Shown here: positions 3,430 to 32,564 of the stretch, one piece after another
How the letters are laid out: every line of letters starts with the position of its first letter
Position numbering within the stretch: the stretch's first letter is position 1
Assembly: GCA_903868545.1 (NCBI GenBank)
Contig: CAIPVR010000313.1
Coordinates: 1 to 32,564 of the forward strand
Origin: an uncultured Actinomycetes bacterium
GTDB taxonomy: Bacteria; Actinomycetota; Acidimicrobiia; Acidimicrobiales; Microtrichaceae
Reading direction: 5' to 3'
Length of the DNA stretch: 32,564 nt
Position numbers and translations under genes: made by a program
Notes under the pieces: model-generated
Told to the model about the DNA's origin: nothing
What the model saw: the letters and a program-made list of their open reading frames with translations, nothing else
The model's database searches: none

Positions 3430-4245
3430 ATGACCGATCCGGCTGCCGTGTTGTCGGGCTTCGAGCGCGACGAGTTCACCTTCGACTCGAAGCGTCGGAC
3501 CGTGTGGCGCTCCGGCGACGGCCCGGGCGTGGTCGTCATGGCCGAGATGCCGGGCATCACCCCGCGGGTGGTGGAGTTCGCGGAACGGGTGCGCGACCGT
3601 GGGCTCACCGTCGTGCTCCCGCACCTGTTCGGCGAGCCCGGCGAGCCGCCCGGGGCGCTCGCCTTCGCCCGGTCGCTCCCACCGGCCTGTGTCAGCCGCG
3701 AGTTCGCGGCGTTCGCGCTGCGCCGCACCCCACCCGCCGTCGACTGGCTCCGGGCGCTGTGCCGCGACACGCACGCGCGCTGCGGCGGCCCGGGCGTGGG
3801 GGCGGTGGGCATGTGCTTCACCGGTGGGTTCGCCCTTGCGATGGCCACCGAGCCGGCGCTCCTCGCGCCGGTGCTGAGCCAGCCGTCGCTGCCCATCGGG
3901 CTGGGCGCCGGTGCCCGCGGTGCGCTCAACATCTCCGACGCCGACCTGCTCGCGGTGAAGGAGCGGTCCGAGGAGGAGGACCTCTGCGTGCTCGGCCTGC
4001 GCTTCACCGGCGACCGGATGGTCCCCGCCGAGCGGTTCGCCACCCTGCGCCGCGAGCTCGGCGACCGGTTCCTCGCGGTGGAGATCGACTCGTCGAAGGG
4101 CAACGGTTGGGGCCACCGGGCCACCGCCCACTCGGTGCTCACCGAGGACCTCGTCGACGAGCCGGGCCAGCCCACCGGGGAGGCGCTCGAGCAGGTCCTC
4201 GACTTCCTCGCCGCCCGCCTCCTCCCCGCCACCCCGGCGAAATAG
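3430..4245 (+). CDS. Dienelactone hydrolase family alpha/beta hydrolase
   Basis: Cytosolic alpha/beta hydrolase of 271 residues, related to carboxymethylenebutenolidase. The nucleophile elbow is G-M-C-F-T-G-G with Cys129, the cysteine type used by dienelactone hydrolases, with likely Asp195 (FTGDRMVP) and His229 or His234 (GHRATAHS). Glu39 (MAEMPGI) matches the family glutamate that steers the cysteine. The substrate is unknown; no aromatic-degradation genes are nearby, so a general hydrolase role is as likely as a true dienelactonase. The gene stands alone with its own predicted leaderless promoter. Its TAG stop falls inside a degenerate copy of the AATAGGGGTCC repeat. Confidence 0.82.
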   Translation: MTDPAAVLSGFERDEFTFDSKRRTVWRSGDGPGVVVMAEMPGITPRVVEFAERVRDRGLTVVLPHLFGEPGEPPGALAFARSLPPACVSREFAAFALRRTPPAVDWLRALCRDTHARCGGPGVGAVGMCFTGGFALAMATEPALLAPVLSQPSLPIGLGAGARGALNISDADLLAVKERSEEEDLCVLGLRFTGDRMVPAERFATLRRELGDRFLAVEIDSSKGNGWGHRATAHSVLTEDLVDEPGQPTGEALEQVLDFLAARLLPATPAK

Positions 4246-4251
4246 GGGTCC
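4241..4251 (+). repeat. Degenerate copy of gene-end repeat (core AATAGGGGTCC)
   Basis: The 11-bp core AATAGGGGTCC overlaps the TAG stop (4243-4245) of the hydrolase gene. Fuller copies occur at 22247-22279, 23284-23345 and 24102-24120, also at gene ends. Only the core matches here, so this member is the least certain. Confidence 0.45.
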
Positions 4252-4255
4252 GCAA

Positions 4256-4299
4256 CGCCCGGAACGGGCGCGGAGGCGCCCGAGATGCCGGAATCGGGC
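4256..4299 (+). terminator. Hairpins downstream of dienelactone hydrolase gene
   Basis: CGCCCG-GAA-CGGGCG (4256-4270) is a perfect 6-bp stem. A second GCCCGA/TCGGGC pair follows by 4299. There is no T-tract. Confidence 0.5.
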
Positions 4300-11339: not shown

Positions 11340-13337
11340 GTGGCCACACGACGTCGGAGCAGGTCGCAGAAGCCCCGCCCGTCCGCCGGTGGCGGCGTGG
11401 GGGTGAGGTCCCGCCCGGCCACCAGCACCTCGTTCGACGAGGAGCACCTCCAGGCCCAGGTGGACGCCTGGGTGGGGTCGCGCCGGGCGAAGCTGGGCGA
11501 CGTGCTCGTGGCCGCGGGCACGATCAGCGCGGACGACCTCCTCGAGGCGCTCGCGGTCCAGCGTCGGGCCCGGGGCCGCTCCGGAGCCGGCGGCGAGGCC
11601 CCGGACGCCGGCGGCGAGGCCCCGGAGGCCGGCGGCGACGACCCGGCCGCCGCCACCCCGGTGGGAGGTCCCCGCCTCGGCGAGGTGCTCATCGACCTCG
11701 GGGTGCTGGGCGAGGACTCGCTCGCCGGTGCCCTCGCCGAGCAGTTCGGCGTGCGCACGGCGGACCTCACCGAGGAGGACGTGGAGCACGCGGCGGTGGA
11801 GCGCGTGCCCGAGGAGGTGGCCCGGCGCCACGGCGTGCTGCCCTGGCGCGTGGAGGGCGACCGCGTGCTCGTGGTGGTCTCGGACCCGCTCGACACCGAC
11901 GCCATCGTGGAGCTCACCGCGACGTGCCGGAACATCTCGCTGGTCATCGGTCCGCGTGCGCACATCGACCGCCTGATCGACCGCACCTACGACGCGCTGT
12001 CCACCGCGGACGACGTGATCCGCGCGTTCGAGCTCACCGCGGCCGAGCAGGAGGCGTCCTCCGACGACACCTTCCGCGTGGACGAGAGCGCCCCGGTGGT
12101 GCAGGTGGTGAACCGCATCCTCACCCAGGGCGTGCGCAGCCGGGCCTCCGACATCCACGTCCAGCCCGGCCACGGCGACGTGCGGGTCCGCTTCCGTGTG
12201 GACGGCGCCATGACCGACGCCATCCGGCTGCCCTCGTCGATGGGGCCGGCCGTGGCCAGCCGGCTGAAGGTGATGGCCGAGCTGAACATCGTGGAGCGGC
12301 GCAAGCCCCAGGACGGGCAGTTCTCGGTGAGCGTCGACGGCCGGCCGATCGACGTGCGCCTCTCCGTGGTGCCCACCATCGACGGCGAGAAGTCGGTGAT
12401 GCGGCTCCTCGACAAGACCGGGTCGGTGATCTCGGTGGACCAGCTCGGCATGGTGCCGTCGGTGGCCCGTCCGTTCCTCGACATGGTGCGTGCCCCGCTG
12501 GGCATGGTGCTGTGCACCGGGCCCACCGGCTCGGGCAAGACCACCTCGCTCTACGCCGCCCTGCAGGAGGTGAACGACCCGACCAAGACGGTGGTCACCA
12601 TCGAGGACCCGGTGGAGTACCAGTTCGACGGGATCGCCCAGATGCAGGTGAGCGACACCGGCATGGACTTCGCGGAGGGGCTGCGGGGCATTCTCCGCCA
12701 GGACCCCGACGTGATCCTGGTGGGGGAGATCCGCGACGCGGAGACGGCGCGGATCGCCATGCAGGCCGCGCTGACCGGCCACCTGGTGCTGAGCTCGTTG
12801 CACGCGATCGATGCCGTCTCTGCGGTGCACCGCTTCATCGGGATGGGCATCGAGCCGTTCCTGGTGGGCTCCGCCATCAACGGGGTGGTGGCCCAGCGGC
12901 TGCTGCGCCGCCTGTGCCGGGCCTGTCGGGCCGAGACCACTCCGAACCCCAACGAACTCCGGCTGCTGGCCGAGATCACCGACGGCATCCTGCCGGAGAC
13001 GTGGTTCCGGCCCAAGGGCTGCAACCTGTGCGCCGGCACGGGCTACCGCGACCGGGTGGGCGTGTACGAGCTGCTCCGTTTCACCGACACGGTGCGCGAG
13101 CTGGTGGCGGCCCGTGCGGCCCCCAGCGAGATCAAGGCCGAGGCGTTGGCCGACGGGATGCGGACGATGCAGCAGCAGGCGTTCCTGATGGTGGCCGACG
13201 GGGTCACCACGGTGGAGGAGGTCATGCGCTGCGTGTATGCGCCGACCGCCACCGACACGGCCAAGGGCCCGGCGGAACTGACCGAGGGTCGCCGCGCCAT
13301 CAGCGCCGGTCCCGCGAGCGAGGAGGGGGCGGCATGA
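11340..13337 (+). CDS. pilB: Type IV pilus assembly ATPase, PilB/GspE type, with split MshEN region
   Basis: Hexameric secretion ATPase that drives pilin polymerisation at the cytoplasmic membrane; 665 residues. The two 24-residue MshEN half motifs (c-di-GMP binding in the family) are at 51-74 (KLGDVLVAAG...) and 112-135 (RLGEVLIDLG...), but are separated by 37 residues rather than the usual 5. The linker holds a repeated AGGEAP(D/E) unit. Next come the N2 region with SAPVVQVVNRIL and RASDIHVQP, Walker A GPTGSGKTT (394-402, Lys400), the Asp box TIEDPVEYQ, Walker B ILVGEIRDAETA, the His box LSSLHA, and a four-cysteine zinc site (CRACR and CNLC). GTG 11340 has a strong Shine-Dalgarno AGGAGGAG (11326-11333). 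First gene of a five-gene operon. A second PilB-type gene begins at 30638. Confidence 0.94.
   Translation: MATRRRSRSQKPRPSAGGGVGVRSRPATSTSFDEEHLQAQVDAWVGSRRAKLGDVLVAAGTISADDLLEALAVQRRARGRSGAGGEAPDAGGEAPEAGGDDPAAATPVGGPRLGEVLIDLGVLGEDSLAGALAEQFGVRTADLTEEDVEHAAVERVPEEVARRHGVLPWRVEGDRVLVVVSDPLDTDAIVELTATCRNISLVIGPRAHIDRLIDRTYDALSTADDVIRAFELTAAEQEASSDDTFRVDESAPVVQVVNRILTQGVRSRASDIHVQPGHGDVRVRFRVDGAMTDAIRLPSSMGPAVASRLKVMAELNIVERRKPQDGQFSVSVDGRPIDVRLSVVPTIDGEKSVMRLLDKTGSVISVDQLGMVPSVARPFLDMVRAPLGMVLCTGPTGSGKTTSLYAALQEVNDPTKTVVTIEDPVEYQFDGIAQMQVSDTGMDFAEGLRGILRQDPDVILVGEIRDAETARIAMQAALTGHLVLSSLHAIDAVSAVHRFIGMGIEPFLVGSAINGVVAQRLLRRLCRACRAETTPNPNELRLLAEITDGILPETWFRPKGCNLCAGTGYRDRVGVYELLRFTDTVRELVAARAAPSEIKAEALADGMRTMQQQAFLMVADGVTTVEEVMRCVYAPTATDTAKGPAELTEGRRAISAGPASEEGAA
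11586..11639 (+). repeat. 21-bp in-frame tandem repeat in pilB linker
   Basis: Two full 21-bp units (11586-11606 and 11607-11627) differ only at the last base and are followed by a partial third. They encode AGGEAPD and AGGEAPE, between the two MshEN half motifs. A multiple-of-three unit allows length change without frameshift. Confidence 0.85.
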
Positions 13338-15048: not shown

Positions 15049-17054
15049 GCCGGCGGCGACCCGGGCGCCGGCCCGCCCGCGACGCGACGGCCCCGGTGCC
15101 GACCGGCCAGTCCGGCGTGACCATGGTGGAGACCCTCATGGCGCTCGCCCTGACGGCTCTGCTCATGGTGCCGATGCTGGGGTGGGCGTTCTTCGCGTTC
15201 CGGTCCCAGGTGGACACCCGGGAGCAGAGCCTGCAGGGCAGCGGCATCGGCATCGCACGCACCTACCTCGTGCGCGACATCGCCTCGGCCGACTGGTCCG
15301 CCACCACGGGGACCGACGCCGTGGACTGCGCCGGCGGCGACGGTGCCGGCGGTCGGGTCCTGCTGGTGTCATCGGGTACCTCAGGTCGGGCCGCGTACAC
15401 CGAGGGCGCCTCCCTCGACCGCCCGGGCACCTACTCGTTGTGGCGGCGCAGCTGCGCCGTGGCCGGTGGCCCGGTCACGGCCTCGGTGGAGCTCCTCCGG
15501 GTGGAGCGCAACGCCACCACCGTCACCTGCATCCAGGGGAGTGCCCCCGCAGGTCGTTGCAGCCGAGTGGTGGTGCGCCTGGTGCTGCCCGACTCGGCGG
15601 CCCTCACCCTCTCGGCCTCGGTGCGCTCCGACCCCGCCGGCACCGTGGACCAGCCGGTGGCGGACCCGGTCCCGCCCACCGTGGCGCTCGCCGTGTCGCC
15701 CACCACCGGGTTCCGCGGCACGCAGTTCGCCTTCAGCTCCGCCGGCTCGTCGGACCCCGGTGGCACCACCGTCCGCTTCCTGTGGGAGTTCGGCGACGGC
15801 ACCACGTCGACCGCCGCCAACCCCACCAAGGCCTACGGCGCCGTGGGCTCCTTCACGGCGGTCCTCACGGTCACCACCGCCGGCGGCACCACCGCCACCG
15901 ATTACGTGGAGGTGCGGGTGGACAACCGGCTGCCCACTGCCGTGATCGCGGCGCCGGCCGATGACGCCACGGTGTTCCGGGGCCAGACGGTGAACTTCTC
16001 CTCCGCCGGCAGCGGTGACGGGGACGACGCCGCGTACGGCGGGAGCGTCGTCGCCCGGCGCTGGGACTTCGGCGACGGCACCACGTCGACCGCCGCCAGC
16101 CCCACGAAGTCCTTCGACCAGCTGAGCCCGGCCGGCGGCTTCGTGGTGCGCCTCACCGTCACCGACGACCTGGGCGCCGAGCACCAGGCACAGGTCCGCG
16201 TGGTGGTCGCGAACCGGCTGCCGACCGTGGTCGTCAACGCCACGCCCGCCACGGGTGCGTCGCCGCTCGTGGTGAACCTCACCAGCACCGTCACCGACGA
16301 GACCACGATGACCACGAACCCGGCGGTGACCTACGCCTGGGACTACGGCGACGGCCGCACGTCCACCGCGGCCAACCCCGGCAACGTCACCTTCACCGGG
16401 TCGGGCACCCGCACGGTGACGCTCACGGTCACCGACGACGCGGCGGCCACCGCCACGGCCAGCCGGACGATCACGCTCAACACGCCGCCCACCGCGGCGT
16501 TCACCCTCTCGCCGTCCTCCGGCCGGGCACCCACGTCGGTGTCGTTCACCAACTCCTCGGCCGACACCGACGGGACGATCGCGTCGTACGCGTGGAGCTT
16601 CGGCAACGGGGCCACCTCCACCGTACGGTCGCCCGCTGCACAGACCTTCACCTTCGACAACGCCGCGTCGGACACGTTCGTGAGCGCCACGTACACGGTC
16701 ACGCTCACCGTGACCGACAACGGGGGTGCCACCGCGAGCACCACGCGCACGGTGAGCATCACCGGTGCGCCGGCGCCCACCAACCTGCGCCGGACGGCCA
16801 CCGGCTCATCCGGTGGCCGTCGCTACCTCGACATGGCGTGGAACTCGGTCACGGGCGTGAACCTGTACCAGGTGGAGGCCACCTGCACGTCGAACAACTG
16901 CACCGATGTGATCACCACCACTTCGTCCGGCACGACAGCGCGGGTGACCACGCTCACCAACTCCGGCCGGAACTACAACGTGCGGGTCCGCGCCCGTGAC
17001 TCGGTCACCGGCAAGTGGGGCGCCTGGAGCACGACGCTGGGGACGAGCACGTGA
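15045..17054 (+). CDS. Large prepilin with four PKD domains and a fibronectin-like C-terminus
   Basis: Predicted surface-exposed minor pilin of 669 residues. The leader ends at Gly24, followed by VTMVE with Glu29 at +5 and a hydrophobic helix to about 48. A pilin-like domain with three cysteines runs to about 205. Then come four PKD-type beta-sandwich domains (about 211-293, 297-389, 393-478 and 481-573), each with a (W/A)(D/E/S)(F/Y)G(D/N)G core and a terminal LTVT strand, and a fibronectin type III-like domain (about 576-666). PKD domains usually mediate protein or glycan contacts, so an adhesin role at the pilus tip or along the fibre is inferred. GTG start overlaps the previous stop in GTGA. 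The sizes are far above ordinary pilins. Confidence 0.88.
   Translation: MSRRRPGRRPARDATAPVPTGQSGVTMVETLMALALTALLMVPMLGWAFFAFRSQVDTREQSLQGSGIGIARTYLVRDIASADWSATTGTDAVDCAGGDGAGGRVLLVSSGTSGRAAYTEGASLDRPGTYSLWRRSCAVAGGPVTASVELLRVERNATTVTCIQGSAPAGRCSRVVVRLVLPDSAALTLSASVRSDPAGTVDQPVADPVPPTVALAVSPTTGFRGTQFAFSSAGSSDPGGTTVRFLWEFGDGTTSTAANPTKAYGAVGSFTAVLTVTTAGGTTATDYVEVRVDNRLPTAVIAAPADDATVFRGQTVNFSSAGSGDGDDAAYGGSVVARRWDFGDGTTSTAASPTKSFDQLSPAGGFVVRLTVTDDLGAEHQAQVRVVVANRLPTVVVNATPATGASPLVVNLTSTVTDETTMTTNPAVTYAWDYGDGRTSTAANPGNVTFTGSGTRTVTLTVTDDAAATATASRTITLNTPPTAAFTLSPSSGRAPTSVSFTNSSADTDGTIASYAWSFGNGATSTVRSPAAQTFTFDNAASDTFVSATYTVTLTVTDNGGATASTTRTVSITGAPAPTNLRRTATGSSGGRRYLDMAWNSVTGVNLYQVEATCTSNNCTDVITTTSSGTTARVTTLTNSGRNYNVRVRARDSVTGKWGAWSTTLGTST
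15789..16098 (+). repeat. 31-bp exact direct repeat in PKD-coding region
   Basis: A 31-bp identical sequence starts at 15789 and at 16068 (both beginning TTCGGCGACGGCACC). The copies encode the FGDGTTSTAA core of PKD domains 1 and 2. The distance of 279 bp is 93 codons, so recombination between them would remove or add one PKD domain in frame. Confidence 0.85.
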
Positions 17055-20665: not shown

Positions 20666-22236
20666 GCGACACCCCGCAGTCCGCCACCACCGACGGGCCC
20701 CGCCCGCGACGCGCCCTCCTGAGCGCCTACGACAAGACCGGCATGGTCGAACTCGGCCGGGCGCTGGTGGACCTCGGCTGGGAGCTGGTGTCGTCCGGCG
20801 GCACTGCCCGGGTGCTGGCCGCCGCCGGCCTGCCGGTGATCCCCACCGAGGACGTGACCGGCTTCCCGGAGATGCTCGGGCACCGGGTGGTGACCCTGCA
20901 CCCCGCCATCCACGGCGGGATCCTCGCCGACCGCGACGAACCCGACCACGTGGCCGACATGGCCACCTACGGCGTGGTCCCGATCGACCTGGTGGCGGTG
21001 AACCTCTACCCGTTCGGCTCCGACCCGTCGGTGGAGCTCATCGACATCGGCGGGCCGGCCATGGTGCGTGGCGCGGCGAAGAACCACGCGTACGTCACGG
21101 TGCTGGTGGACCCGGCCGACTACGACGTGGTCCTCGACGAACTGCGGTCCACCGGGGAGGTCGCTGCGACGACCCGTCGCCGCCTGGCGCGCGACGCGTT
21201 CGCCCACACCGCCGCCTACGACTCGGCCATCGTGTCGTGGTTCGACGAGGGCGGCCCGGGCGAACTGGCCCCGCCGGTGGGGGAGGAGGCCCGCGGGCCG
21301 CTGCCGCCCACGGTGCACCTGTCGGCCCGGCTCGCCCAGCCGCTCCGCTACGGCGAGAACCCGCACCAGCACGGCGCCCGGTACACGTTCTCCGGTGACG
21401 GCTGCTGGGACCGGGCCGTGCAGCACGGCGGCAAGGAGATGAGCTACCTCAACGTGTACGACGCCGACGCGGCCTGGCGTCTCGTGTGGTCGTTGGGGGA
21501 CCGGCCCGCCGCGGTGGTGATCAAGCACGCCAACCCGTGCGGCGCCGCCGTGGCCGACGACATCGCCACCGCCTACACCCGGGCCCACGAGTGCGACCCG
21601 GTGAGCGCCTTCGGGGGCATCGTTGCGCTGAACCGGACGGTCACCCGGCCCCTGGCCGAGGCGCTGGCCCCGGTGTTCACCGAGGTGATCGTGGCCCCCG
21701 GCTACGACGAGGACGCGTTGCTGGTGCTGCTGGAGAAGCGCAACCTGCGGGTGCTCACGGCGCCCGAGCCGGAGGTGCCCGCGCTCGACGTGCGCTCGAT
21801 CGAAGGCGGCCTGCTGGTGCAGACCCGCGACGTGGTGTCGCTCGACCGGTCGAACTGGCAGGTGGTGACCGACCGGGCGCCCACCGACGCGGAGTGGACC
21901 GACCTCGAGCTCGCGTGGCGGGTGGCGGCCCGGGTGACGTCGAACACGATCGTGCTGGTGAAGGACGGGCAGGCCGTCGGCATCGGTGCGGGCCAGCAGA
22001 ACCGTCGTGACGCGGGGCGGATCGCGGCGGAGAAGGCCGACGGCCGGGCCGTGGGCGGGGCGTGCGCGTCCGACGCGTTCTTCCCGTTCCGCGACGGGCT
22101 CGACGCCGCCGCGGCGGCGGGTGCCACGGCGGTGATCCAGCCGGGTGGGTCGGTGCGCGACGAGGAGGTGATCGCGGCGGCCGACGAGCAGGGCCTCGCG
22201 ATGGTGTTCACCGGCGAGCGCCACTTCAAGCACTGA
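20662..22236 (+). CDS. purH: Bifunctional AICAR formyltransferase / IMP cyclohydrolase
   Basis: Carries out the last two steps of IMP synthesis; 524 residues. The N-terminal MGS-like cyclohydrolase domain (about 17-150) has RALLSAYDKTGMVEL, SSGGTARVL, HRVVTLHPAIHGGIL and LIDIGGPAMVRGAAKNH. The C-terminal formyltransferase has LRYGENPHQ, VVIKHANPCGAA, DPVSAFGGIVALN, GIGAGQQNR and the closing QPGGSVRDEEVI...FTGERHFKH. ATG overlaps the purN stop. The TGA is followed within ten bases by the first 33-bp flanking repeat. Confidence 0.97.
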   Translation: MSDTPQSATTDGPRPRRALLSAYDKTGMVELGRALVDLGWELVSSGGTARVLAAAGLPVIPTEDVTGFPEMLGHRVVTLHPAIHGGILADRDEPDHVADMATYGVVPIDLVAVNLYPFGSDPSVELIDIGGPAMVRGAAKNHAYVTVLVDPADYDVVLDELRSTGEVAATTRRRLARDAFAHTAAYDSAIVSWFDEGGPGELAPPVGEEARGPLPPTVHLSARLAQPLRYGENPHQHGARYTFSGDGCWDRAVQHGGKEMSYLNVYDADAAWRLVWSLGDRPAAVVIKHANPCGAAVADDIATAYTRAHECDPVSAFGGIVALNRTVTRPLAEALAPVFTEVIVAPGYDEDALLVLLEKRNLRVLTAPEPEVPALDVRSIEGGLLVQTRDVVSLDRSNWQVVTDRAPTDAEWTDLELAWRVAARVTSNTIVLVKDGQAVGIGAGQQNRRDAGRIAAEKADGRAVGGACASDAFFPFRDGLDAAAAAGATAVIQPGGSVRDEEVIAAADEQGLAMVFTGERHFKH

Positions 22237-22246
22237 CCCCCCTCCC

Positions 22247-22279
22247 CCCTCCGGGGGAATAGGGGTCCTCAGGGCGCTG
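22247..22279 (+). repeat. Left copy of 33-bp direct repeat
   Basis: Identical over 33 bp to 23284-23316 (core CCGGGGGAATAGGGGTCC). It starts 10 nt after the purH stop codon. Together the two copies bracket the AbiEi-like/DUF559 gene. CTCAG-GGCG-CTGAG at its right edge forms a small hairpin that may terminate purH. Confidence 0.9.
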
Positions 22280-22359
22280 AGGGCGCCCGCAACCGCCGCG
22301 AACGTGGCATGGGCCGACCGGGCACCGCTCCCCGCTGACGACCAGGGGTGCCCGGGGGT

Positions 22360-22384
22360 GGACTCGGCGGATGCCGCCGAGTCC
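22360..22384 (+). promoter_or_regulatory. Perfect palindrome with the start codon in its loop
   Basis: GGACTCGGCGG (22360-22370), ATG (22371-22373) and the exact reverse complement (22374-22384) form an 11-bp-arm inverted repeat. In RNA the start codon would sit in a tight three-base loop; in DNA it is a good dimer operator. AbiEi proteins are known to repress their own promoter through inverted repeats, so autoregulation is plausible. GGGCACC (22319-22325) and GGTGCCC (22347-22353) form a second, longer-spaced pair upstream. Confidence 0.7.
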
Positions 22385-23279
22385 GGATCAGACGCTTCTG
22401 TCGTTCGCCCGCGCGCACCACGGGCTCTTCCGTTCCTCCGACGCGTTGCGCTGCGGCCTCAGCACGGCGCAATTGAAGAACCGGGTGCGGCGGGGGCTGG
22501 CCCAGCCGGTCGGTAAGGGCGTGTACCGGATCGGCGGCGCCCCGAGCGGCCTCCGGCAGCACCTGCTGGCCGGTTCGTGGCGGGTGAACGGCCCTGCGTC
22601 GCACCGGTCCGCAGCAGAGTTGCTGGGCATCTGGGATCGCCCTGCCCCGAGACCCGAACTCAGCGTGCAGCGCGCCGGGGCCCATGAGTTCTCCGGACTG
22701 ATCGTGCACCGCAGTGGCGACCTCGACCGCTCCCTGGTGATCGAGCGCCACGGGATCCAGGTGACCGGCCCGGCCCGCACGCTCGTCGACGTCGGCCAGG
22801 TGGTGTCGCCGGCGGTGCTCGAGCAGATGGTGCACCGAGCGGTCCACCTCGGCATCGTCCGTCTCCAGGACGTGGTGGACGAGTACCGGGCGTTGTCACG
22901 GCCCGGCCGTCGCGGTGCCGGCCCCATCGGTGAACTGCTCCGGTCGATCGCGCCGGGCATGGCCGCTGCCGAGAGCGTGCTCGAGGTGCTGATCCTGCGG
23001 ATCATCCGTGACGCGGGCCTGCCCGAACCGGTGCGCCAGTTCGAGTTGGCGGTGGACGGCCGGCGCGTGCGGCTGGACTTCGCCTACCCGGACCAGCTCG
23101 TGTTCCTCGAAGGTGACGGGTTCGGGGCGCACGGCACGCGGTCGGCGTTCGAGAGCGACCGTGCCCGTCAGAACCTGTTGGTCGTGGCGGGCTGGCGACC
23201 GCTGCGCTTCACCTGGCGTCAGGCCCGGTTCGAACCGCACGCGGTGTCCGCCACGGTCGCCGCTGCACTCGGTCTGTGA
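22371..23279 (+). CDS. AbiEi-like HTH protein fused to DUF559 (Vsr-like) nuclease domain
   Basis: Protein of 302 residues. The N-terminus (about 8-60: LLSFARAHHGLFRSSDAL...LSTAQLKNRVRRG...GVYRI) looks like the winged-helix domain of the AbiEi antitoxin family; the middle (TGPARTLVDVG) is typical of such proteins. The C-terminus (about 205-300) is DUF559-like, a PD-(D/E)XK-type fold: RLDFAYPDQLVFLEGDGFGAHG, then SDRARQNLLVVAGWRPLRFTW. Putative metal residues are Asp in RLDF and Glu/Asp in LEGDG. No AbiEii toxin (nucleotidyltransferase) gene is adjacent, so this is not a full AbiE pair. The gene lies alone between direct repeats and starts inside a palindrome. Biological role is unknown for this family; nuclease activity is inferred. 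Confidence 0.85.
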   Translation: MPPSPDQTLLSFARAHHGLFRSSDALRCGLSTAQLKNRVRRGLAQPVGKGVYRIGGAPSGLRQHLLAGSWRVNGPASHRSAAELLGIWDRPAPRPELSVQRAGAHEFSGLIVHRSGDLDRSLVIERHGIQVTGPARTLVDVGQVVSPAVLEQMVHRAVHLGIVRLQDVVDEYRALSRPGRRGAGPIGELLRSIAPGMAAAESVLEVLILRIIRDAGLPEPVRQFELAVDGRRVRLDFAYPDQLVFLEGDGFGAHGTRSAFESDRARQNLLVVAGWRPLRFTWRQARFEPHAVSATVAAALGL

Positions 23280-23283
23280 CCCT

Positions 23284-23345
23284 CCCTCCGGGGGAATAGG
23301 GGTCCTCAGGGCGCTGTGCGATCCCTGAGGACCCCTATTCCCCGG
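23284..23345. repeat. Right copy of repeat, forming a 23-bp inverted repeat with a third copy
   Basis: The direct copy 23284-23316 matches 22247-22279 exactly. A reverse copy at 23323-23345 pairs with 23288-23311 with only one unpaired C, giving a 23-bp stem and an 11-nt loop. It lies between convergent genes and could act as a two-way terminator. The reverse copy supplies the TAG stop (23337-23335) of the minus-strand methyltransferase. Confidence 0.9.
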
Positions 23346-24030
23346 TTCGGGTGGGGGGGCGGGTGGCCACGAGGAGCAGGTGCGGGTGCACGTCCCGTCG
23401 GTCCACCGGCACCGAACGCACCCTGAGGCCTGCGTCCAACAGCGTCCCGACCATGACCTCGGGAGAGACCAGCTCCACCCGCTCACCCTCCGTGTAGCGC
23501 AGCACCCGGGTGGCCCCCACCTCCTGGATCTCGGTGAGGCGACGTTTCCACCGGGGCTCGAGGCCCATCTCCTTCACGAGCACCGTGCCGCCGGGTCGCA
23601 CGGCACCGGTCATCGCCCGGAGCAGGTCGACCGCGGCGGTCTCGCCCAACAGGTAGAGCACGTCCACGCAGAGCACGGTGTCCACGCCCCGGTCCGGGAG
23701 CAGTCCGAGCGGCAGTGAACCGTCGGCGGAGTGCACCAGTTCCACGCGGTCGGCCACCCCGAGCCGTCGGGCTGCGGCCCGGCCGAGCTCGAGCTTGTCG
23801 ACGTCGATGTCGACGCCGACGACCCGACGGTCGGTGTCCTCCATCGCGGCGAGCACGGAGAACAGGCCGTGGCCGCAGCCGACGTCGAGCACGGTGCCGC
23901 CGGCGGGGATCCGCTCGAGCACCTCCCGGACCGGGCAGGTGGCGGTTCGCAGGAACACGTGCAGCTGGTTCGGCCGGGAGTCGCCGAACGCGGCGACCGC
24001 CCGCCGCTGCAGGGCGTCGGGGATCGGCAT
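23335..24030 (-). CDS. Class I SAM-dependent methyltransferase
   Basis: Rossmann-fold methyltransferase of 231 residues; substrate unknown. Motif I LDVGCGHG is at 48-55, the acidic ribose-binding residue is Asp74 in VVGVDID, and motif IV-like VDTVLCVDVLYLL and post-motif RPGGTVLVKEMG follow. The N-terminal TATCPVREVLERIPAGG and the WKRRLTEIQEV segment differ from common housekeeping methyltransferases. The ATG overlaps the upstream deacetylase stop (TGATG), so it is the last gene of the glycolipid-type operon, and it may modify the same sugar or lipid. The final GE-stop is encoded by the gene-end repeat. Confidence 0.82.
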   Translation of the reverse strand: MPIPDALQRRAVAAFGDSRPNQLHVFLRTATCPVREVLERIPAGGTVLDVGCGHGLFSVLAAMEDTDRRVVGVDIDVDKLELGRAAARRLGVADRVELVHSADGSLPLGLLPDRGVDTVLCVDVLYLLGETAAVDLLRAMTGAVRPGGTVLVKEMGLEPRWKRRLTEIQEVGATRVLRYTEGERVELVSPEVMVGTLLDAGLRVRSVPVDRRDVHPHLLLVATRPPTRTGE

Positions 24031-24932
24031 CAGTCGGTCCCGTCGCTCGCGCCGCCGCTGCTGCCGCTGTTCTCGGCGGTTGGGGTATCGGAGAGGTTCC
24101 CGAGGACCCCTATTCCCCGGAAGGAGGTGAGGGTGAAGCCGGCGCGGGCGACGGCGTCACGCGCTGCGGGGGAGCAGAGCGCCTCGAGCTCGTCGGGCCA
24201 CCAGTAGCCCCACTCGTAGCGGACCCGGTCGGGGTCGTGGAACTCGCCGGGATGGCACGCGAGCTCGGCGGTGGCGGCACCGGTGCGCCCGAGCCACGCC
24301 ACCGCGTCCACCAGCCGCGCCTCGGTCAGGTGGCCCGCCTCGTCGAGTCCGGTCGACGCCGCGGGCACGGCCACGCCCGCGGCGCGGGCCCGCCGTGCCA
24401 GGCGCGCCGAGAGGGCGCGCACCCCGCCCGAGGTGGCGTTCCACGACGAGGTGCGGGTGAGGCGCATCGCCCGCACCCCCCGCGCCGTGGCGAGCTCGAG
24501 CACCACCCCGGCCACCGACGGCCACAGATGCAGGTTCTGGTGCGCGTCCACGTGGGTGACCTGCACGCCCGCCGACTCCAGCACGTCGAACTGGGCGGTG
24601 AACTCCCGGCGCAGGTCGTCGGGATCCACCCGGCCGCGCACGGCGCGGGCCACGAACTGCTTCCAGGTGAGGGGGAACCGGCCGCGGTCGTCGACGAGCG
24701 TCGGCACCTCGGCGGCCGACAGCACCGGGGGGTCCTCGCCCACGGCGGCGAGGTGGGCGCCGGTCGGCAGGCCGCTGTCGGTCAGCGCGCCGGCGTGCGC
24801 CGCGAAGGCAGGGCCCACCGCGAGCGCCGTGGTGCTGGAGACGATGCCGTCGCGGTGGGCCCGGAGGATCGCCCGGCACACCCCGGGGGTGAGGCCGAAG
24901 TCGTCGGCGTTGACGACGAGCAGCCGGCTCAC
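24030..24932 (-). CDS. YdjC/ChbG-family (HpnK-like) carbohydrate deacetylase
   Basis: Metal-dependent deacetylase of N-acetylated sugars; 300 residues. The N-terminal LLVVNADDFGLTPGV gives the metal-binding Asp10/Asp11; GAHLAAVGE gives His60; THVDAHQNLHLWP gives His127, His131 and His135; ELACHPGEF is the C-terminal family motif. GTG 24932 overlaps the stop of the GT2 gene (GTGA). Residues 273-300 (GIGVLGNLSD...) are encoded by, or lie beyond, a copy of the AATAGGGGTCC repeat; related proteins normally end soon after a SFRDL-type motif, so this tail looks acquired. Placed between a GT2 and a methyltransferase, it probably acts on a lipid-linked sugar; a free chitobiose role is less likely. 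Confidence 0.87.
   Translation of the reverse strand: MSRLLVVNADDFGLTPGVCRAILRAHRDGIVSSTTALAVGPAFAAHAGALTDSGLPTGAHLAAVGEDPPVLSAAEVPTLVDDRGRFPLTWKQFVARAVRGRVDPDDLRREFTAQFDVLESAGVQVTHVDAHQNLHLWPSVAGVVLELATARGVRAMRLTRTSSWNATSGGVRALSARLARRARAAGVAVPAASTGLDEAGHLTEARLVDAVAWLGRTGAATAELACHPGEFHDPDRVRYEWGYWWPDELEALCSPAARDAVARAGFTLTSFRGIGVLGNLSDTPTAENSGSSGGASDGTD
24102..24120 (-). repeat. Copy of gene-end repeat inside deacetylase 3' end
   Basis: GAGGACCCCTATTCCCCGG on the plus strand matches 19 bp of the reverse copy at 23327-23345. Read on the minus strand it encodes RGIGVL at the end of the YdjC-family domain and leads into the extra tail. Confidence 0.85.
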
Positions 24933-30637: not shown

Positions 30638-32564
30638 GTGTTGAAGCGATCTCGACGTCAGAGCACCGACCGAAGTGCCGGTTTCAGCGCGTCGTCGGAA
30701 CGGCTCGAGGAGGAGATCCAGGAGTGGGTCTCCGAGGAGCGTCGCCGCATGGGCGAGATCCTCCTCGACGACGGCCTCATCACCGCCGAGCAGCTGCTCG
30801 ACGCGCTACAGGTGCAGCAGGAGACCGGCCGCCGCCTCGGCGACATCCTCCTCGAGCAGGACCTCGTCGACGAGCACCAACTCGCCGGTGTCCTCGCCGA
30901 GCAGTTCCACATCGACCGCGCCGACCTTCGGATGGTGGAGCCGTCGCCGGCGGCGATCGCCCGGGTGAGCGAGGAACTGGCGCGCAGGCACCAGGTGATC
31001 CCGTTGCGGGTGGAGGATGACGATCGCATCGCGCTCGTCACCGGCGAACCGCTCGGGGTGGAGGCGATCCGCGAGCTCACCCAGCACTGCAGTCGGATCC
31101 GGATCATGGTGGGCGCCACGTCGGACATCCAGCGGATGCTCGACCAGGCCTACAACGCGCTGGCCCTGGCCGACGAGCACATCCAGGCGTTCAACCTCAT
31201 CGCGGACGAGGACGAGTCCACCGCCGATGCGATCAACCTCGAGGTCGACGAGAACGCGCCGATCGTCCAGGTGGTCAACCGCATCCTCATCCAGGCCGCC
31301 CGTGCCCGCGCCTCGGACGTGCACATCGAGCCGCACGAGCACCAGGTGGTGGTGCGGTTCCGCATCGACGGCGCGTTGAGCGTGGCCATCCAGTTGCCGC
31401 GCCGGATGGGCCCGCCGGTGGCGTCGCGGCTCAAGGTGATGAGCGACCTCAACATCGTGGAGCGCCGCCGACCGCAGGACGGCCAGTTCTCGGTGAACGT
31501 CGACGGCCGCCCGATCGATGTGCGCATCTCGGTGGTGGGCACGGTGCACGGCGAGAAGATCGTGCTCCGGATGCTCGACAAGACCCGGTCGCTCATCTCG
31601 CTGAAGAACCTCGGCATCACCCCGGCGATCCTCCCGGAGTACCTCGAGATCGTGAAGGCGCCGCTCGGGATGCTGCTCTGCACGGGCCCCACCGGCTCGG
31701 GCAAGACCACCACCCTCTACGCCACCCTCACCGAGGTGAAGGACCCCACCAAGAACGTGGTCACCATCGAGGACCCGGTGGAGTACCAGTTCGCCGGGAT
31801 CAACCAGATGCCGATCAACGAGATGGCCGGCATCACCTTCGCCGACGGTCTCCGCGGCATCCTCCGCCAGGACCCCGACATCATCCTCGTGGGTGAGATC
31901 CGCGACGTGGAGACGGCGCGCATCGCCACGCAGGCGGCGCTCACCGGCCACTTCGTGCTGAGCTCCCTCCACGCGGTGGACTCCGTCTCCGCGATCCACC
32001 GCTTCACCGACATGGGCATCGAGCCGTTCCTCGTGGCCTCCGCGGTGAGCGGGGTGGTGGGTCAGCGGCTGCTGCGCCGGATCTGCAACAGCTGCCGGGA
32101 GGAGTACGAGCCGCACCCCGACCACGTGCGCCTCACCGAGGGCTTCGCCGGGAAGGTGCCCGACCGTTGGACCCGCGGCGCCGGCTGCAACCTCTGCTCC
32201 GGTACCGGCTACCAGGGCCGGGTGGGCGTGTACGAGTTGCTGAAGATCTCCGACGGCATCCGCGGCCTCATCGTGATCAAGGCCACGGCCAAGGAGATCC
32301 GCGACCTGGCGGTGGAGGAGGGCATGCACACGATGCAGGCCGAGGCCTTCCGCCTGGTGGCCGAGGGGTCCACCACGGTCGACGACGTGCTGCGGAGCGT
32401 GTACGCACCGGGCATGGAGTCCCAGCTGCTCGACATCTCCGACGTCGAGTCGATCGACCTCTCCGACGTCGAGGTCCCCGACCGGCCCACCACCCCACTG
32501 TCGGCCCCGCCGATCGACGTCACCGCCCGGGAGCGGGTGTCGGTCGCCGCCGGCCCGGCCGCCC
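30638..32564 (+). CDS. pilB: Second PilB/GspE-type pilus ATPase with canonical MshEN motifs (3' end cut)
   Basis: At least 642 residues, running past the window end. The two MshEN half motifs are at 37-60 (RMGEILLDDG...) and 66-89 (RLGDILLEQD...), with exactly five residues between them, the spacing of c-di-GMP-binding MshEN domains. Then come APIVQVVNRILIQ, RASDVHIEP, Walker A GPTGSGKTTT (from Gly350, Lys356), the Asp box TIEDPVEYQ, Walker B ILVGEIRDVETA, the His box LSSLHA and zinc cysteines CNSC and CNLC. The tail is acidic (LLDISDVESIDLSDVE). GTG 30638 is preceded by purine-rich GGAGGGGG (30620-30627). PilT is excluded by the N-terminal domain and the zinc site. Probably the first gene of another pilus operon. 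Confidence 0.93.
   Translation, partial: MLKRSRRQSTDRSAGFSASSERLEEEIQEWVSEERRRMGEILLDDGLITAEQLLDALQVQQETGRRLGDILLEQDLVDEHQLAGVLAEQFHIDRADLRMVEPSPAAIARVSEELARRHQVIPLRVEDDDRIALVTGEPLGVEAIRELTQHCSRIRIMVGATSDIQRMLDQAYNALALADEHIQAFNLIADEDESTADAINLEVDENAPIVQVVNRILIQAARARASDVHIEPHEHQVVVRFRIDGALSVAIQLPRRMGPPVASRLKVMSDLNIVERRRPQDGQFSVNVDGRPIDVRISVVGTVHGEKIVLRMLDKTRSLISLKNLGITPAILPEYLEIVKAPLGMLLCTGPTGSGKTTTLYATLTEVKDPTKNVVTIEDPVEYQFAGINQMPINEMAGITFADGLRGILRQDPDIILVGEIRDVETARIATQAALTGHFVLSSLHAVDSVSAIHRFTDMGIEPFLVASAVSGVVGQRLLRRICNSCREEYEPHPDHVRLTEGFAGKVPDRWTRGAGCNLCSGTGYQGRVGVYELLKISDGIRGLIVIKATAKEIRDLAVEEGMHTMQAEAFRLVAEGSTTVDDVLRSVYAPGMESQLLDISDVESIDLSDVEVPDRPTTPLSAPPIDVTARERVSVAAGPAA

Follow-up and report, generated by a model that had tools for sequence, protein, structure and literature searches.

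Repeats around the nuclease gene

The window analysed here is a stretch of 32,564 nucleotides from an uncultured bacterium of the Acidimicrobiia. Downstream of purH, whose stop codon lies at 22234-22236, it carries a gene for a 302-aa protein (22371-23279, plus strand) that is bracketed by two direct repeats. Direct comparison bore out the coordinates and the identity given for these repeats in a first-pass annotation of the sequence: the same 33 bp, CCCTCCGGGGGAATAGGGGTCCTCAGGGCGCTG, are found at 22247-22279, beginning 10 nt past the purH stop, and at 23284-23316, beginning 4 nt past the stop of the 302-aa gene. The 33 bp are the identical stretch rather than the whole element, which extends to about 50 bp once copies are aligned. 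As aligned, the upstream copy is a type B repeat at 22254-22306 (plus strand, identical stretch 22247-22279 included), situated just 3' of the purH stop and approximately 65 nt 5' of the nuclease gene; the downstream copy has the same orientation.

The window also holds copies beyond the pair originally noted. Allowing up to three mismatches, GGGAATAGGGGTCCTC has five matches in the window against 0.22 expected by chance. The third copy is inverted (23318-23345, minus strand) and stands head to head with the downstream copy, so that the two form a joint palindrome at 23291-23342; the TAG within it serves as the stop codon of a methyltransferase gene (23335-24030, minus strand). The fourth, again of type B (24066-24118, minus strand), lies within a YdjC-like gene, the next but one, where it is read in frame as the C-terminal tail of the protein, following the domain. 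Type A, a sister type, is represented at 4237-4289 on the plus strand. Elsewhere in the window, a repeat of about 80 bp occurs three times at a spacing of 276-279 bp (15758-16392), and two related stretches (12078-12957 and 31244-32126, 75-79% identity) are separated by about 19 kb.

A predicted DNA-binding protein fused to a nuclease

Profile searches found two domains in the 302-aa product, AbiEi_4 (E 2.5e-11) and a nuclease domain of the MTES_1575/DUF559 type; a sequence profile also picks up 3hrl, an endonuclease-like protein. The conserved residues E205, D236, E247, D249, H254, D263 and R266 are all retained. In the predicted structure (mean pLDDT 92.8), Foldseek matched the N-terminal half to AbiEi (6y8q, E 7e-8) and the C-terminal domain to the endonuclease I-Bth0305I (3r3p, TM 0.74 across the domain). 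On these matches, the gene is predicted to encode a fusion of an AbiEi-like DNA-binding protein with a nuclease of the I-Bth0305I/DUF559 type. PADLOC AbiEi models matched all four proteins tested. No gene for a partner toxin (nucleotidyltransferase-like, DUF1814) was seen beside the window gene, which stands between purH and the methyltransferase gene.

Repeats and nuclease genes across the genome

The repeat is dispersed throughout the genome to which the window belongs. Its core, AATAGGGGTCC, has 77 matches there, counting exact core matches only, while a reversed-pattern control has none; alignment of the copies separates them into type A (39 copies) and type B (38 copies). With genes called by a simple rule based on open reading frames and GC3, 68 of the 74 copies that could be placed are at a gene end, compared with 29% of random positions, and 36 of the 74 are between two gene ends, compared with 4%. 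In other words, the repeat is scattered mostly outside genes, as are the palindromes of REP/RAYT systems. The core is absent from each of 32 other genomes of the same family.

The AbiEi_4 profile detected three genes in the genome and the DUF559 profile one more. All four of the DUF559-type nuclease genes found in this way are bracketed, each with a different repeat: the window gene by type B, a paralogous gene on contig C19 by type A, a gene on contig C229 by the palindrome GAACTCGTTGCG...CGCAACGAGTTC, and a gene on contig C236 by the palindrome GCTTTGTGTCGCGC...GCGCGACACAAAGC, the downstream copy of which is partial. A genome search for the C229 palindrome (type C) with up to two mismatches returned only its two flanks, plus three matches at the level of the control. 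The first-pass annotation had stated that its reading would fail if the repeat were spread over the genome without any tie to DUF559 genes. The spread is there, but so is the tie: all the DUF559-type nuclease genes found in this genome are bracketed.

Bracketing in other actinobacteria

The suspected link between such genes and repeats turned out to be general. Among AbiEi_4 genes in the host family, 34 of 45 with the nuclease domain are bracketed, versus none of 21 without it (Fisher p 1.4e-9, a value that is too strong because related genes are not independent). At named loci from many orders of actinobacteria, 44 of 74 nuclease genes are bracketed, versus a single one of 363 neighbouring control ORFs. 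At the threshold used, 11 of the 45 nuclease-bearing genes in the host family and 30 of the 74 at the other loci are unbracketed. Two short stand-alone DUF559 genes showed no bracketing. Pairs of a nuclease gene and its bracketing palindromes are widespread in actinobacteria. Most upstream palindromes are 60-165 nt ahead of the gene start. At one locus (L302, G024:C365), tandem repeat units are found 5' of the nuclease gene.

In five genomes with several such genes, we compared each upstream palindrome with every downstream one. The resulting matrix is diagonal; that is, an upstream palindrome best matches the downstream palindrome of its own gene. The exceptions are L306 against L301, an off-diagonal match at threshold (18.0), and the gene L081, whose own pair is weak (16.0). 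Some families of palindromes consist of no more than the two flanks, whereas one family in a complete relative reaches about 30 or more copies; all these sizes are lower bounds, with 40 candidates scored per genome. In G004, three of six palindromes have few or no scored copies besides the flanks. Several palindromes, type C and these three included, are thus nearly confined to the flanks, and spread is not universal.

Fixed genes and changing palindromes

The Geodermatophilaceae allow the same locus to be followed between species. The nuclease gene holds one syntenic locus throughout, which indicates mostly vertical inheritance. Its palindromes vary from species to species, and only the closest species have one in common. 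Within a species the upstream and downstream palindromes agree, and between species they change together. Solo palindromes, those away from nuclease genes, are common to some orthologous sites and missing from others when species are compared, and one and the same gene end bears different palindromes in different species. In one Geodermatophilus genome (G038; L253 421-480, L271), a palindrome is read in frame within the linker of a glycosyltransferase-like protein and is absent in G047 and G049. The LaPlata loci L109 and L110 represent the same locus with the nuclease gene in opposite orientations relative to its neighbours.

Among 26 Geodermatophilus genomes, three (G054, G055 and G056) lack the gene at this locus and hold a single palindrome there, and the left neighbour, too, is incomplete in G055; two others (G051 and G060) have no palindrome at that locus. 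In the first-pass annotation, the gene and one repeat were taken as a possible cassette that inserts where a repeat is already present. Loci that lack the gene and hold a single palindrome do exist, in relatives of other species than the window organism that carry such genes, but the gene keeps its place, and because most species have it there, these loci are likely losses rather than ancestral empty sites. Recombination between the flanks may have produced them.

A probable constraint on DNA

Mismatches between the palindrome arms bear on whether the constrained form is DNA or RNA. An RNA hairpin would tolerate GU pairs, whereas the arms show no such bias: on the sense strand, GT mismatches (52) are about as frequent as AC mismatches (60). 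This points to a constraint on DNA and argues against an RNA hairpin as the constrained form. Rfam gave nothing at gathering threshold in the window; within 22200-23400 only sub-threshold miRNA and sRNA models matched, and these to the head-to-head hairpin. The head-to-head pair (23291-23342) is predicted to fold strongly as RNA, while a single type B copy from the window folds no better than its shuffles (z -0.65), so copies in this genome are only partly palindromic. Inspection by eye revealed no core motifs of an attC/integron site. The published AbiEi protein binds two 23-bp inverted repeats that are 3 bp apart, and neither AbiEi nor Rv2827c binds the repeats of the other (PMC7319586). Taking the analogy with this operator, both the size of the palindromes and the one-to-one matching of genes and palindromes fit binding by the AbiEi half.

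Proposed explanation and alternatives

We observed that the genes are bracketed, that this depends on the nuclease domain, that each gene has a palindrome of its own, and that the two flanks change in concert; to these come the dispersed copies mostly at gene ends, the differences in copies between species, the gene-less loci holding one palindrome, the lack of an RNA-type bias in the arms and the two predicted domains. We consider it probable that each nuclease gene and its own bracketing palindrome of 45-60 bp constitute one functional pair, acting through binding, cutting or nicking, and repair-copying. The AbiEi half would most likely bind both arms of the palindrome as a dimer, and the nuclease domain would nick or cut at the bound palindrome. 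Repair of the break would copy the palindrome to other sites and would also keep the two flanking copies alike. In this way each protein would sustain a repeat family of its own, just as a RAYT sustains its REPs. We infer the binding, the cutting, the copying in the course of repair, and the ability of the gene to move together with its flanks. We put forward more tentatively, at somewhat less than an even chance, the wider proposal that this is a second, independently evolved system of repeat dispersal, in which a site-specific AbiEi-nuclease fusion that is not a transposase maintains and spreads its own palindromes in actinobacteria.

Several alternatives need to be weighed against the functional pair. 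By binding 23-bp inverted repeats in the promoter, AbiEi and Rv2827c act as repressors of their own operons (PMC7319586), and the usual position of the upstream palindrome, 60-165 nt before the start, would suit an operator for autorepression by the AbiEi half, the other copies being secondary sites. Yet the same genes have a second copy past the stop codon, the dispersed copies are placed at the ends of genes, many of them where two genes converge, and none of the 21 nuclease-less AbiEi_4 genes has the arrangement. Autoregulation may well operate alongside, though it would leave the downstream, dispersed and nuclease-linked copies unexplained, and we regard it as unlikely to be the full explanation. 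We hold a transposable cassette to be equally improbable, one in which gene and terminal palindromes excise and insert together and solo palindromes are non-autonomous relics. It would explain palindromes at both gene ends, gene-less loci holding one palindrome, and orthologous sites that have a solo copy in one species and none in another. Against it, the gene is fixed at one syntenic locus across the Geodermatophilaceae, paralogues within a genome have different palindromes, and recombination between flanks explains the gene-less loci equally well.

It is much less probable still that chance placed the repeats around nuclease genes and that they are simply ordinary bidirectional terminators or RNA hairpins. 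Their location at gene ends, often convergent ones, and the strong RNA fold of the head-to-head pair are what terminators would show, but GU-type mismatches are not in excess over AC-type ones, Rfam has no match at gathering threshold, some copies lie within coding frames, and the tie to nuclease-bearing AbiEi_4 genes is specific, compared with one of 363 control genes. A scheme of protection or addiction, whereby DNA without the palindrome is harmed by the nuclease, or the nuclease is held in check by the palindrome, has similarly little to recommend it: AbiEi is an antitoxin family, matched by the PADLOC models in four of four proteins, and the nuclease residues of the window protein are intact, but no partner toxin stands beside the window gene, between purH and the methyltransferase, and such a scheme leaves the dispersed gene-end copies and the concerted change of the flanks unexplained.

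If the proposed dispersal system is real, REP-like repeats have originated on at least two occasions, each time with an enzyme unrelated to the other, and there is a testable agent for the spread of short palindromes in actinobacteria. Each of the common AbiEi_4-DUF559 genes would have a defined candidate DNA site, and together they would supply many proteins with their cognate sites for studies of specificity. In the open-access literature we found no paper that ties DUF559 or AbiEi genes to such repeats; most subscription papers were outside this search, and an earlier description is possible.

Comparison with known systems

The protein combines features of two known groups. With the AbiEi antitoxins (AbiE, Rv2827c) it shares the predicted N-terminal fold (6y8q), and the palindromes are about as long as the AbiEi operator; unlike them, it has a nuclease fusion and no toxin partner seen at the window gene, and its putative binding sites lie on both sides of the gene and genome-wide. 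With the I-Bth0305I or Vsr-like (EDxHD) homing endonucleases it shares the predicted catalytic fold (3r3p) and conserved acidic and histidine residues, of which E205, D236, H254 and D263 are, judging from the sequence, putative counterparts of the published active site. Here, however, no intron or intein was seen, the DNA-binding part is AbiEi-like, and there are dispersed palindromes where a homing endonuclease has one homing site. Rickettsia palindromic elements are palindromic repeats able to sit in frame within coding genes. In-frame copies in coding genes occur here too, but the repeats described here have a candidate partner gene.

The closest likeness, as the first-pass annotation aptly suggested, is to REP/RAYT. 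There, too, a gene lies between two copies of its own palindrome, with further copies dispersed outside genes, and orthologous genes stay in place while both flanking palindromes change yet remain palindromic (PMC2817692). If a layout of this kind were the sole criterion, the nuclease and its palindrome would be a REP/RAYT variant. The RAYT enzyme, however, is a Y1 HUH transposase related to IS200/IS605, whereas here the protein is an AbiEi domain with an I-Bth0305I-like nuclease, and the palindromes are 45-60 bp long and lineage-specific. We rejected a RAYT as the true partner of the repeats, since none is encoded in the window genome, where the Y1 transposase profile PF01797 has no match. 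As far as the two can be compared, the system works like REP/RAYT and is not a member of it; we set it apart as a new kind because its protein and the RAYT, the known partner of such repeats, are unrelated.
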